Notes under the pieces: model-generated
What the model was told of the DNA's origin: nothing
Databases searched by the model: none
The model's input: the letters and a program-made list of their open reading frames with translations, nothing else
From: an uncultured Ruminiclostridium sp.
GTDB lineage: Bacteria > Bacillota > Clostridia > Oscillospirales > Ruminococcaceae
Length of the DNA: 64,000 nucleotides
Direction: 5' to 3'
NCBI GenBank assembly: GCA_947630175.1
Contig: CANRGJ010000001.1
Location: 124,001 to 188,000, forward strand
Position numbers and translations under genes: made by a program
In this document: positions 4,721 to 59,775 of the stretch, piece after piece
Layout: each line of letters opens with the position of its first letter
How positions within the stretch are numbered: position 1 is the stretch's first letter

Positions 4721-5701
4721 ATGGGTCACTTAAAAAAGTATTACATAATGGCGGAAAATGAGCTTAACCGCCGCCGCACCTTAAATCACGAAATTCAGCA
4801 ATCACACATAGCAGAGGCGGAAAAAGCTATACCCGAGCTTTCCGCTTTGCGAAAGAAACTGTCGGCAAGCGGTGCCAAGCTATCCTCCATATTGATTTCA
4901 GGAGGAGATATTACAAAGAAATTACAGCAGATAGCTGATGAAAATATTTCCGTAAGCAGGCAAATAAAGGAGCTTTTGGTAAAAAACGGATATTCTCCGG
5001 ATTATCTTGAGCCCGTATACAGTTGCACAAAGTGTAATGACACCGGTATTTATGAAAATGAGAGATGTTCATGTTTTTTAAATGATGTGAAAAAGTTTCA
5101 ATGTGCTGATTTAAATGCTTCTTCCGCTATGAATCTATGTTCTTTTGATACTTTTGAACTGAGCTTTTATTCCGCAAAAGCTGACTCCAATGGTGTTGTA
5201 TCTCACGACAGAATGGAAAAAATATTTAATTATTGTACTGAGTATGCACGGGACTTTCATCTCCCTGTCAGCGGGATACTTATGCTTGGAGGAACGGGTT
5301 TGGGTAAGACTCATTTATCGCTTGCCATAGGCAGGGAAGTGATAAATAACGGTTACAGCGTGATTTACGGTTCTGCGCCTGATCTTTTCAACCAGATTGA
5401 AAAGGAACATTTTTCTTCACATGATGAAGATAATGATACTCTTCAACTTCTGAAAGAATGTGATCTGCTGATAATAGATGATCTTGGTACAGAGTTTGAG
5501 TCAAAATTTAATTATTCTACCCTTTATGATTTGATAAATACCAGAATGAACAAAGGAATACCAATCATCATCAATACAAATTATCTTCTTTCTGAAATTC
5601 AGGAAAGATACAGCGGAAGAATAATTTCAAGACTGGCAACAATGAAAATACTGCCTTTTTGCGGCGAGGACATCAGGCTGATGAAAAAAGCTGAATTTTG
5701 A
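4721..5701 (+). CDS. DnaI/DnaC-like helicase-loader ATPase
   Basis: Walker A GGTGLGKTHLS, Walker B LLIIDDLGTE, Cys cluster CTKCNDTGIYENERCSC. Confidence 0.85.
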   Translation: MGHLKKYYIMAENELNRRRTLNHEIQQSHIAEAEKAIPELSALRKKLSASGAKLSSILISGGDITKKLQQIADENISVSRQIKELLVKNGYSPDYLEPVYSCTKCNDTGIYENERCSCFLNDVKKFQCADLNASSAMNLCSFDTFELSFYSAKADSNGVVSHDRMEKIFNYCTEYARDFHLPVSGILMLGGTGLGKTHLSLAIGREVINNGYSVIYGSAPDLFNQIEKEHFSSHDEDNDTLQLLKECDLLIIDDLGTEFESKFNYSTLYDLINTRMNKGIPIIINTNYLLSEIQERYSGRIISRLATMKILPFCGEDIRLMKKAEF

Positions 5702-55501: not shown

Positions 55502-57166
55502 TTATTTTATAATTTCGCTGAGATTAAGTGCGCTGAGCAGACCTCTTACCGATGATGTGATGATGTCGCTGTGTACTCCTGCGCCCCAGGTTATTACACC
55601 GTCTTTATCAGCTATCTCAACATAAGTTATCGCTTTTGATTTTGAACCTGTATTCAGTGCATGCTCGTTATATGAACAAAGAACAAACTTCAAATTAAGG
55701 CATTTTCTCAGCGCATCGCTTACAGCGTCAAGTCTGCCGTTGCCTGAGCCGGTGATCGTTCTTTCCTGACCGTTTTGTATAATCGTGAGCTTTGCCTCAA
55801 TTTCTTCGCCTTGGACAAAATGTACTTCCTTGTATTTTATCTTGCTTTCCACATTGACGAATTTTTCGTTGAAAGCCTCATAAATTTCATCGGGCATAAG
55901 CTCTTTATGCAGCTTGTCAGAAATGTCCTTGACAGCGTAGCCTACAGTTTCTCTGAATTTAGGCGGCAGGTCAATGCCGAATTTCTTTTGCAGAAGATAA
56001 CCGATACCGCCTTTTCCACTCTGGCTGTTGATCCTGATGACATCTCCGTCATATTGACGTCCTATATCCTTCGGGTCAATGGGAAGATAGGGAACTGTCC
56101 AGTGTGGAACGTCCTTTTCCTCTCTCCAGCGCATACCCTTTGCGATAGCGTCCTGATGAGAACCTGAAAATGCGGCAAATACCAATGCTCCGCTGTAAGG
56201 CTGCCTGTCGTAGACCTTCATACAGGTCATTTTTTCATATATTTCAATTATCTGGGGAATATTGCTGAAATCAAGCTCCGGATCAACGCCATGTGAATAC
56301 ATATTCAGTCCGAGAGTTACAATATCCACATTTCCAGTTCTTTCGCCGTTCCCGAACAGCGTACCCTCAACACGATCAGCGCCTGCAAGAAGTCCCATTT
56401 CTGTGTCAGCCACAGCGCAGCCTCTGTCGTTGTGCGGGTGAAGGGAAACGATGACATTTTCCCGCTTATAAAGGTTTTCGCACATATATTCGATCTGACT
56501 TGCGTAAACATGGGGCATTGACAACTCCACCGTTACAGGAAGGTTGATTATGACCTTATTTTCATGAGTAGGCTCCCATATTTTCAGCACTTCGTTGCAT
56601 ATTTCCAGAGCAAACTCCATTTCGGTTCCCGTAAAGCTTTCGGGAGAATATTCAAATTTGAAGTTTCCCTCAGTATTTTTTGCAAAATCCAACAGCATTT
56701 TAGCGCCGTCGGTTGCAATTTTGATAATTTCTTCTTTCGGTTTTCTGAAAACCTGTTCTCTTTGCGCAACGGAAGTGGAGTTGTACAAATGTACAACTGC
56801 ATTTTTTGCACCTTTCAACGCCTCAAAAGTTTTTCTAATGATATGCTCACGGGACTGCGTCAATACCTGAATAGTTACATCATCAGGAATAAGGTCTTTT
56901 TCGATCAAAGCACGGCAAAATTCGTACTCTGTTTCAGACGCGGCGGGAAATCCTATTTCTATTTCCTTAAAACCGATTTTAACAAGGAATTTAAAGAATT
57001 CCAGCTTTTCCTCCAGGTCCATAGGCACAATAAGCGCCTGGTTGCCATCACGCAGGTCAACGCTGCACCAAATTGGAGCCTTGTCGATGTACTCCTTTTC
57101 CGCCCACTTATAGCAGGGATAAGGAGGCATAAAATAATTTCTTGTGTACTTTTCTGTGTTTTTCAT
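55502..57166 (-). CDS. leuA: 2-isopropylmalate synthase (LeuA type 2)
   Basis: WCSVDLRDGNQALI, VSLHPHNDRGCAVADTEMGLLAGADRVEGTLFGNGERTGNVD, C-terminal LeuA dimer region. Confidence 0.94.
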   Translation of the reverse strand: MKNTEKYTRNYFMPPYPCYKWAEKEYIDKAPIWCSVDLRDGNQALIVPMDLEEKLEFFKFLVKIGFKEIEIGFPAASETEYEFCRALIEKDLIPDDVTIQVLTQSREHIIRKTFEALKGAKNAVVHLYNSTSVAQREQVFRKPKEEIIKIATDGAKMLLDFAKNTEGNFKFEYSPESFTGTEMEFALEICNEVLKIWEPTHENKVIINLPVTVELSMPHVYASQIEYMCENLYKRENVIVSLHPHNDRGCAVADTEMGLLAGADRVEGTLFGNGERTGNVDIVTLGLNMYSHGVDPELDFSNIPQIIEIYEKMTCMKVYDRQPYSGALVFAAFSGSHQDAIAKGMRWREEKDVPHWTVPYLPIDPKDIGRQYDGDVIRINSQSGKGGIGYLLQKKFGIDLPPKFRETVGYAVKDISDKLHKELMPDEIYEAFNEKFVNVESKIKYKEVHFVQGEEIEAKLTIIQNGQERTITGSGNGRLDAVSDALRKCLNLKFVLCSYNEHALNTGSKSKAITYVEIADKDGVITWGAGVHSDIITSSVRGLLSALNLSEIIK

Positions 57167-57223: not shown

Positions 57224-57478
57224 AAATAAACCCCGCCTCTTAGTAAAGAGACGGGGATAAAATTCCTCGCGGTACCACTCTTCTTAGCGCCGTTTGCGCT
57301 CACCTTAGCTACACATCAATCAATGCGCTACTCTATAACGGGAGAACCCGGTCAAGCCTACTGCAAATTCAACCGACTGCTCAAGGGTGAGCTATAACAG
57401 AATCGTTTTACCGTTTCGCACCTTACAACGGCTCTCTGAAAAACTCAACTGCTTTTTTCCCTATCATCGCATTTCAAC
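57224..57478 (-). ncRNA. T-box riboswitch leader of leuA
   Basis: T-box motif AAGAGTGGTACCGCGAG on the minus strand (57266-57282); terminator CCCCGTCTCTTTACTAAGAGGCGGGG + T run; candidate Leu CTC specifier in TTATAGCTCACC. Confidence 0.9.
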
Positions 57479-57867
57479 GTTTTTATTATATTTGATTGTT
57501 TTTGTTTTGTCAAGTGTTTTTCCGAATTTTTATGAAAAATTTCTTTTGTACCCACAAAAATCAAGAGGGAAGCGAACAGTTTCTGAAGAAAGTCTGTCTG
57601 GATATTTGATGAAAGCCACGTTCCTACCGCTATTCCCAGGAGTCCGCCCGGTATAAGATACAGAAGTTTTTTCCATTGAATAAGTTTATTTTTCTGATGA
57701 ATGACAAGCGAAACCAACGCCGTGGGAAGAAAAAACAGCAGGTTGACTCCCTGAGCAGTGATCTGTTCCACTCCCGCAAAGGCGGTAAGGTAAATGATAA
57801 GTATGAAGCCTCCTCCAAATCCCATGGAGGCGGCTATTCCCGATAATAATCCGATTATAATTTCCAT
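57445..57867 (-). CDS. TauE/SafE (TSUP) family half-transporter
   Basis: IIIGLLSGIAASMGFGGGFILIIYL...GAQ(GVN), hydrophobic; pairs with the next half protein. Confidence 0.7.
   Translation of the reverse strand: MEIIIGLLSGIAASMGFGGGFILIIYLTAFAGVEQITAQGVNLLFFLPTALVSLVIHQKNKLIQWKKLLYLIPGGLLGIAVGTWLSSNIQTDFLQKLFASLLIFVGTKEIFHKNSEKHLTKQKQSNIIKTLKCDDREKSS
57485..57513 (-). promoter_or_regulatory. leuA promoter
   Basis: Minus strand TTGACA-17 nt-TATAAT. Confidence 0.7.
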
Positions 57868-57874
57868 ATTTATA

Positions 57875-58216
57875 TCATTTCAAAAAAATTCTTATTGCCG
57901 CTGCCAGCATAACTGCGCCGAAAATCCTTCTTAATACAGAATTTGGCACTTTTTTCAAAAAAAATGCTCCTATAACTGCACCGATAATTCCGTACGGAAT
58001 GTATGCCGCCGCCATATTAAAGTCCAGCTTGTCGCCCAGCAGATAGCTTATCGTTGTGGCGGTGCTTAATATAAAAATAAATGCGACGGAGGTTGCATGA
58101 CTTTTTCTCGGTTCAATGCCGGAGGATTCCAGCATTGGAACCGCAGCTATCCCGCCGCCTGATCCGAAAAGACCATTTAAAAGTCCGCATATTACACCCA
58201 TAAGATGTTTTTTCAT
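57875..58216 (-). CDS. TauE/SafE (TSUP) family half-transporter
   Basis: GVICGLLNGLFGSGGGIAAVPMLESSGIEPRKSHATSVAFI. Confidence 0.75.
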   Translation of the reverse strand: MKKHLMGVICGLLNGLFGSGGGIAAVPMLESSGIEPRKSHATSVAFIFILSTATTISYLLGDKLDFNMAAAYIPYGIIGAVIGAFFLKKVPNSVLRRIFGAVMLAAAIRIFLK

Positions 58217-58284: not shown

Positions 58285-58310
58285 ACGGAGCTTTCTTTCG
58301 AAAGCTCCGT
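58285..58310 (-). terminator. Terminator of the probable 6S RNA
   Basis: ACGGAGCTTTCGAAAGAAAGCTCCGT followed by ATTTTTAT on the minus strand. Confidence 0.75.
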
Positions 58311-58312
58311 TT

Positions 58313-58494
58313 ACCGCTGCGCCGTCGCATGATGAATAAAAACCCGCTTTTGAGCAGGGTGGGTAAAGATCTCCTTGCAGGTTCACGCTCCCTTCGTCCG
58401 CAGTGCGGGAGGTCTGCAATCCGCTGCAACCGAGAAATCCCTTTTAACTATGTGTTGGATTTTATAAACCACCACACTAACTAAACGTAGCAGT
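58313..58494 (-). ncRNA. ssrS: Probable 6S RNA
   Basis: ~182 nt ORF-poor unit; 5' ACTGCTACGT pairs with 3' GCGCAGCGGT as closing helix; internal helices and central open region; intrinsic terminator follows. Confidence 0.55.
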
Positions 58495-58536
58495 GATATT
58501 ATTATTTATTGACCAAGTTGAATAAATACCTGTATA

Positions 58537-58863
58537 TTATTGGCAATGTCCGCATTCGCAGTTATCATCACATTCGCTGTCACCGTAAACTGAATTCAAA
58601 TGCTCAATGAATGCCTGACCTACCTCATCATAAAGTTCATCATCGTCAACAGTGGACAGCATATACTCTCCGTTTTGTTCAACTTCTTTCAAAACGATGA
58701 ATTCAACGTCGTCTTCTTCAAGTTCGTCAGATTCGGTGTAGGGAACAAGCGCAACATATTTTTGATCATCATAGCATATCGCATCGATAACTTCAAACTG
58801 TTCTCCGTCAAGATCTACTATCTGAGGCTCGTATTCTTCAAAATCTTCGTTTTTATCAGCCAT
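58537..58863 (-). CDS. DUF1292 family acidic protein
   Basis: IVDLDGEQFEVIDAICYDDQKYVALVPY...EFIVLKEVEQNGEYMLSTVDDDELYDEVGQAF. Confidence 0.85.
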   Translation of the reverse strand: MADKNEDFEEYEPQIVDLDGEQFEVIDAICYDDQKYVALVPYTESDELEEDDVEFIVLKEVEQNGEYMLSTVDDDELYDEVGQAFIEHLNSVYGDSECDDNCECGHCQ

Positions 58864-59058: not shown

Positions 59059-59087
59059 TTGACATTATTCTTTACATATGATATCAT
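59059..59087 (+). promoter_or_regulatory. Strong sigma-A promoter of the large ncRNA
   Basis: TTGACA-17 nt-TATCAT. Confidence 0.7.
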
Positions 59088-59093
59088 ATAAAC

Positions 59094-59775
59094 AAGGAAA
59101 GAGGAACAGAAAACCTCAGGAAACAAAGTTCAAATCGACTGACGAATGACAGGATTGACGTTAAGAGTTTCCATGAGTGGGCGGAAAAAAGGATTTATCA
59201 TAACCGCAATGTTATTATTTCCTACGACGAAACGACAGAATAAAGTGACTTTTATCATAACATCAAAAAGCGACGCTTTAAGTATGAAGTTTCAATGTGC
59301 AGTGTGACAACTGCACAAATCTTATCGGGAAAGGAAGCGAGTCCAATGGAAATAATTGAATCACAGAATCACGAATTGCGGCTCGTGACTGTAATTGCCT
59401 GAAAAAAAGCGGAGTAAAACCGCAGAACAGTTTATTAAACAGCGTTTCTGCCGGTACTCAAATCAGAACGATTTGTTCAAAACAAAACAGCGCTTTATGG
59501 CTGCACCGCAATTCAAATGTGATTACGCCTCGGACGTAAATCCGAGTGTATAGCAGGTCACATTAAACTGCTTTTATATATTTAATCCCGTGCAGGAGTG
59601 ATTTAAATTGAAATTCACAAAATTTCGTGTATTCTTTAAAATCGGTCCAAGCGAATGACAGAAAGGGATTAATCCAATGTACTACTTAATTTACAATTGA
59701 ATATCATCCTGCAGGTAAATCTGCGAAGAAAAGGATAGTTAAACCTCTTACAGTGAAAACTGTAAGAGGTTTTTA
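59094..59775 (+). ncRNA. Candidate large structured non-coding RNA (~680 nt), family unassigned
   Basis: No ORF of 60 aa or more in any frame; consensus promoter upstream; terminator at the end; hairpins such as GTGCAGT/ACTGCAC, nested AATGTGA..CTCGGA/TCCGAG..TCACATT, GCGG/CCGC, CACGA/TCGTG. Confidence 0.6.
59742..59775 (+). terminator. Intrinsic terminator
   Basis: CCTCTTACAGT-GAAA-ACTGTAAGAGG-TTTTT. Confidence 0.9.

Follow-up and report, generated by a model that had tools for sequence, protein, structure and literature searches.

Among the RNAs closest in kind to the one described here are ROOL, OLE and GOLLD. Like them it is predicted to be an autonomous structured RNA of at least 0.6 kb from Bacillota-type gut bacteria with an unclear function, and it is set apart from them by a tandem array of micro-ORFs led by Shine-Dalgarno (SD) sequences. 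A distant parallel may be seen in the OLE complex, which was reported in 2025 to contain the ribosomal protein bS21 (PMC12054373). The raiA/ModT RNA, which acts in trans and has a sigma-A promoter in Bacillota and Actinomycetota (PMC11706538), shares both promoter type and range with our RNA, but is ~209 nt long and unrelated in sequence. Dual-function RNAs and micropeptide mRNAs likewise join a structured RNA to a short ORF, whereas the class described here has many evenly spaced SD-led ORFs, several of them of 1–3 codons, and family-wide conservation. Leader-peptide attenuators also have short-ORF translation overlapping alternative helices, but our RNA has its own terminator and no conserved downstream gene. 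The bar minigenes of phage lambda are of the form AUG-x-stop and thus share SD-led ORFs of 1–3 codons with this class, although here these stand in tandem arrays within a conserved host RNA. Such an RNA was not found described in the literature searched (open-licence papers), and we think it on balance probable, judging from sequence comparisons, that it represents a so far undescribed class of RNAs that are both structured and translated, and whose likeliest role would be to engage ribosomes in series.

The locus lies at 59059–59775 of the window (the whole 64,000-nt stretch of DNA that was analysed), where an original prediction had placed an ORF-free transcription unit encoding a candidate large structured RNA. 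The following features were recognized:

58537–58863, minus strand: divergent gene for a DUF1292 protein (PF06949, 53 bits), a conserved neighbour
59059–59087, plus strand: sigma-A type promoter TTGACA-17-TATCAT, 11 of 12 consensus matches
59094–59121, plus strand: putative transcript start and conserved 5' block CAAGGAAAGAGGAACAG...CCTC
59218–59223, plus strand: UUUCCU strand (helix 1), pairing with GGGAAA at 59327–59332, which overlaps the SD of ORF A
59296–59317, plus strand: hairpin UGUGCAGU/ACUGCACA, recognized by covariation
59328–59348, plus strand: core, consisting of SD AAAGGA, GCGAGTCC and the ATG of ORF A; the most conserved block, found by models R1 and R2
59337–59386, plus strand: helix GCGAGUCC(AAU)/(AUU)GCGGCUCGU, eight pairs, closing around the start of ORF A
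59346–59402, plus strand: ORF A, MEIIESQNHELRLVTVIA, 18 aa, acidic class, recognized by frame conservation
59420–59452, plus strand: covarying hairpin of 13 pairs (helix 4), with double changes in eight pairs
59466–59478, plus strand: small conserved hairpin GAAC/GUUC (helix 5)
59583–59671, plus strand: helix UAAUCCC (59583–59589)/GGGAUUA (59665–59671) (helix 6)
59595–59648, plus strand: helix GGAGUGAUUU (59595–59604, SD of ORF B)/AAAUCGGUCC (59639–59648) (helix 7), 93% of cells paired
59608–59658, plus strand: ORF B, TTG start, MKFTKFRVFFKIGPSE, 16 aa, basic class, read from sequence
59677–59700, plus strand: ORF C, MYYLIYN, 7 aa, SD AAAGGGA
59744–59774, plus strand: intrinsic terminator with 11-bp stem, GAAA loop and U tract, read from sequence

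This anatomy is almost certainly correct, and the transcription-unit signals, structure, frame conservation and SD array can all be read from the sequence itself. Promoter and terminator were found as predicted, the latter as CCTCTTACAGT-GAAA-ACTGTAAGAGG-TTTTT; it was missed by a simple scan and was flagged by the terminator search in the near-identical homologue L059. The transcript start, placed ~7 nt past the −10 box, would be at 59094, and the predicted 682-nt transcript folds to −173 kcal/mol compared to −144.2 ± 6.2 for 20 dinucleotide shuffles (z = −4.7), which agrees with the dense hairpins that had been described. The helices GTGCAGT/ACTGCAC and CACGA/TCGTG named at that time are present as well, and the former covaries. 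A 10-nt direct repeat, CGAATGACAG, does occur at both positions given for it (59143–59152 and 59652–59661) but is not conserved: the first copy falls within a conserved block, and the second forms the final codons of ORF B, where relatives read GTGAATAACAG or GCGAATAACAA. The longest ORFs inside the segment are of 53 and 52 aa, so that the stated lack of any ORF reaching 60 aa holds; "ORF-free" is nevertheless misleading, as conserved SD-led micro-ORFs, overlooked in the first reading, sit below that threshold. Likewise, the reading as a "large structured non-coding RNA" holds in part: the RNA is structured, conserved and autonomous, but it carries these micro-ORFs.

Comparison with known RNA classes gave no Rfam family for the segment at the cut-off and nothing relevant even at E ≤ 10. 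The sole above-cut-off match in the window is an ordinary T-box leader elsewhere (57244–57476, minus strand, 109 bits), before a 2-isopropylmalate synthase gene (55502–57166, minus strand). ROOL, OLE and GOLLD gave no gathering-score match in the window or in 18 homologous loci, and membership in any of them, which the original prediction had offered as one option, is rejected by the Rfam covariance models; its other option, a new class, stands. A raiA/ModT identity, considered for its similar range, was rejected: RF03072 matched nothing in the genome of the window at E ≤ 10, real raiA sequences are unrelated, and none of the genomes of this order that are listed in the class-wide sample had a raiA. 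6S RNA (RF00013) was rejected as well, as the 6S-like match lies near the segment and does not overlie it. This match is probably a 6S RNA gene (58307–58499, minus strand; 34.7 bits, E = 1.3e-5, below the Rfam cut-off of 46.4) downstream of the DUF1292 gene; 6S RNA exceeds the cut-off in L026, L044, L045, L047 and L067, where it likewise lies close to this pair of genes. Beyond it, a TauE/SafE-type exporter is encoded by two adjacent half-size genes (57445–57867 and 57875–58216, minus strand) in swapped order, the upstream gene matching the C-terminal half of PF01925 and the downstream gene the N-terminal half. A phage origin was also discarded, as nine viral-contig matches to the core pattern were chance matches inside long coding frames.

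To collect homologues of the segment, 99 relatives were searched at the DNA level. Fifteen genomes matched, the window's own among them, and all belong to its genus. Two of the matches span the entire length, at 98% and 71%, and the rest are confined to conserved blocks; elements follow the constant order of promoter, CAAGGAAAG start, hairpin, core GGGAAAGGAAGCGAGTCCAATGGA, 3' block and terminator. R1, a covariance model of the core whose weak matches under ~28 bits were left out, and a scan of GTDB genomes with AAGGVRGCGAGTCCVATGG extended the set to many genera. A further model, R2, matched 59 of 299 family genomes and 27 of 126 genera at E ≤ 0.001, with one match per genome. On a class-wide sample of 392 genomes, few of which are listed as family members, it matched four: two of the window's genus, one from another family of the order, whose locus has the promoter and ORF A, and one marginal. 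The E-values of both models are rough. The members come from metagenome assemblies, and some were picked by eye on the basis of their context; the statistics below handle them as independent although they share ancestry. The start-block element (T)CAAGGAAAG was found in nearly all Oscillospirales members, and in most members the start block is preceded by a sigma-A type promoter.

In the 31 members whose terminator was located, transcript length is mostly ~430–1170 nt (433–1171 nt); one outlier of 1648 nt among these was probably read beyond its true end. Shorter forms (~300 nt) on Collinsella and Coriobacteriaceae contigs share this core and, close to the 3' end, carry a GGTGAGTCC-like element. 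Among these short relatives (L127, L119, L144, L151, L161), ORF A reads, for example, MGTEDIAQAFGLVAWGLEA; the one searched against Rfam, L144, had no match at a relaxed threshold. A ~220-nt unit in L147 (~4990–5210), whose contig also holds a 5S gene and whose host appears to lie outside Oscillospirales, has promoter, core and terminator-like hairpin, and an ORF A of just MGH-stop. L121, labelled Bacteroides sp., has a member of Ruminiclostridium/Oscillospiraceae type, and the assembly is probably mislabelled.

Gene neighbourhoods bear on whether the locus is a cis-regulatory leader, i.e., an attenuator for the downstream gene, as its short ORFs overlapping helices and followed by a terminator would resemble a leader-peptide attenuator. 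We regard this as hardly credible, as the downstream gene differs among members (pfkB in the window by Pfam; Sir2-like and DnaD-like frames elsewhere by eye), and the conserved neighbour is the divergent DUF1292 gene upstream, present in 48 of 57 members; the nine others are mostly Coriobacteriaceae, other Clostridia or truncated contigs. The comparisons indicate instead a gene for a structured RNA that is conserved and autonomous.

Seven helices were obtained from the RNAalifold consensus of eight close full-length members. In these, 93.9% of cells are paired compared to at most 45.5% when slid by 1–3 columns, a control that favours the helices as they were drawn from the same alignment, and 17 pairs have changed on both sides compared to 7.6 ± 1.8 in shuffles, which leave relatedness in. 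The hairpin at 59296–59317 has compensatory changes in six of seven pairs among 15 homologues, and in five of eight pairs in the eight-member alignment; the UUUCCU/GGGAAA helix has little covariation because it is nearly invariant. The helix GCGAGUCC/GRCUCGC is conserved in 32 diverse members (87% paired, at most 42% when slid). Because the search pattern fixes its 5' strand, covariation is impossible there; its 3' strand lies at a nearly fixed distance (+30 to +45 past the AUG in most members), and pairing there exceeds that of shuffled windows by about ten standard deviations. Covarying helices, whose absence among homologues would have counted against the original prediction, were found, and by these alignments the locus has a real RNA structure. 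A frameshifted or decayed protein gene, considered on account of protein-like stretches in two frames, was rejected because, instead of a single broken frame, the homologues have separate ORFs, each led by an SD, along with helices that covary.

Among close relatives, conserved helices take up the SDs of all three ORFs (A, B and C). The SD of ORF B pairs with a strand lying within that ORF, and that of ORF C with a strand before ORF B, in helix 6, which surrounds ORF B. Initiation may therefore be gated by RNA folding, and for this close group we think it likely. Across distant members, no excess of SD sequestration was found at non-core sites. A 3-bp SD/UCC hairpin at all sites was tried and set aside, with the excess of complementarity (20 vs 11.7) modest after composition control and no covariation claimed.

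The micro-ORFs were then compared across members. In each of the 57 non-redundant members, the ORF A frame stays open for 15–30 codons, a tightly bounded length (in one it continues past the edge of the contig); at least 12 open codons are seen in 25 and 22 members for the other two frames. Among 20 new members found by R2, which does not score the frame, 18 agree on ORF A, including one (L210) in which GTG replaces the ATG; the remaining two are a locus truncated at the contig edge and a match that was misplaced. Codons with a single change are synonymous in 37% of cases in the ORF A frame and in 25% and 20% out of frame, which points to a weak constraint on the peptide.

Beyond ORF A, the 31 terminator-bearing members contain 138 SD-led ATGs, compared to 35 ± 5.5 in shuffles and five antisense, and 52 occurrences of GGA-N5/6-UCC-N1/2-AUG, compared to 0.4 expected in shuffles; these counts include one pattern-selected core site per member, and the excess persists without it. 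Relative to flanking DNA (417 kb, both strands, 31 loci), SD-led ORFs of up to 16 codons have a 16-fold higher density, and the GGA..UCC.AUG motif a 190-fold higher one. Non-core SD-led ORFs have at most 16 codons in 95% of cases, compared to 62% for non-SD ATGs of the same RNAs (p = 4e-12), and 28% stop within three codons. The SDs match the 16S 3' end GGATCACCTCCTTTCT of a complete same-genus genome. The window's copy is minimal, with three sites, and its ORF B begins with TTG where relatives have the ATG-started MRVIRIGPSE and MRIVFRIGPSE. In L093 (~607–803 of the transcript), three near-identical tandem SD-led units (MEGEYLPL, MESEYLPL, MEGEYLLL) suggest that the array can grow via tandem duplication. 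Frame and SD conservation together make it very probable that the SD-led sites are translated.

Some repeats have the SD hairpin without an AUG (e.g., GGTGAGTCCAAAGG in L055), and start codons are therefore not required at every site. These copies, the repeated GGA..UCC hairpins and the covarying helices would suit a structured trans-acting RNA (a scaffold or CsrB-like sponge) whose SD-like hairpins bind protein and whose AUGs are incidental; such an RNA would hardly keep the ORF A frame in every non-redundant member, bias ORF length downstream of SD-led ATGs or accept GTG for ATG in L210, and we consider it quite improbable.

Intervals between sites are 48–65 nt in 55 of 160 cases (~14 expected), and 12–47 nt in 16 (33 expected). 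Ribosome docking at an SD can protect RNA from 5'-3' decay by RNase J (STAB-SD), and the spacing of the array would permit simultaneous occupancy of such docks, guarding a non-coding RNA whose function lies elsewhere in it. A single SD near the 5' end would be enough for this, and the conserved length of ORF A would go unexplained; this reading is slightly less probable again than a protein-binding RNA.

The main rival to ribosome engagement is a micropeptide operon, i.e., an mRNA for acidic (ORF A) and basic (ORF B type) peptides whose structure tunes translation. ORF A peptides contain 195 D + E and 91 K + R, and ORFs of 7–16 aa contain 130 K + R and 42 D + E; some peptides are conserved group-wise (MCAL.., MSDK.., ..IGPSE), and the synonymous-change excess in ORF A points the same way. 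Between genera, however, the peptides hardly align, many SD-led ORFs have just 1–3 codons, and peptide function leaves the even spacing and the SD-containing helices unexplained, so we find this reading unlikely. We favour ribosome engagement over peptides as the function, since a functional peptide would not fit into many of the ORFs, conservation of the peptide sequences is weak, and site spacing is near ribosome length; it is a serious candidate, at somewhat less than an even chance.

Under ribosome engagement, we propose that a single-copy gene yields a ~680-nt structured transcript whose conserved content would be tandem ribosome entry sites, and not a protein or a passive fold. Each site comprises a strong SD, often UCC 1–2 nt before the start codon, an AUG and a micro-ORF of 1–30 codons, with ORF A always present and sites ~50–60 nt apart, about one ribosome length. 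Several sites could then be bound by ribosomes simultaneously, and the RNA may hold initiating ribosomes, or use occupancy as a switch or as protection of the RNA. More tentatively, and with some doubt, it might titrate ribosomes, its serial high-affinity initiation sites with immediate stops capturing or cycling several small subunits and so tuning translation globally; this would be a translational counterpart of 6S RNA, whose gene is nearby in the window and in several relatives.

An RNA of this kind would escape gene callers, as its ORFs are too short, and RNA databases, as it has no Rfam family. Public metagenomic ribosome-profiling data from MetaRibo-Seq (PMC7324362) may already answer the translation question. 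If the reading is right, a bacterial family with many representatives in gut and rumen conserves an RNA that has ribosome entry sites as its content.
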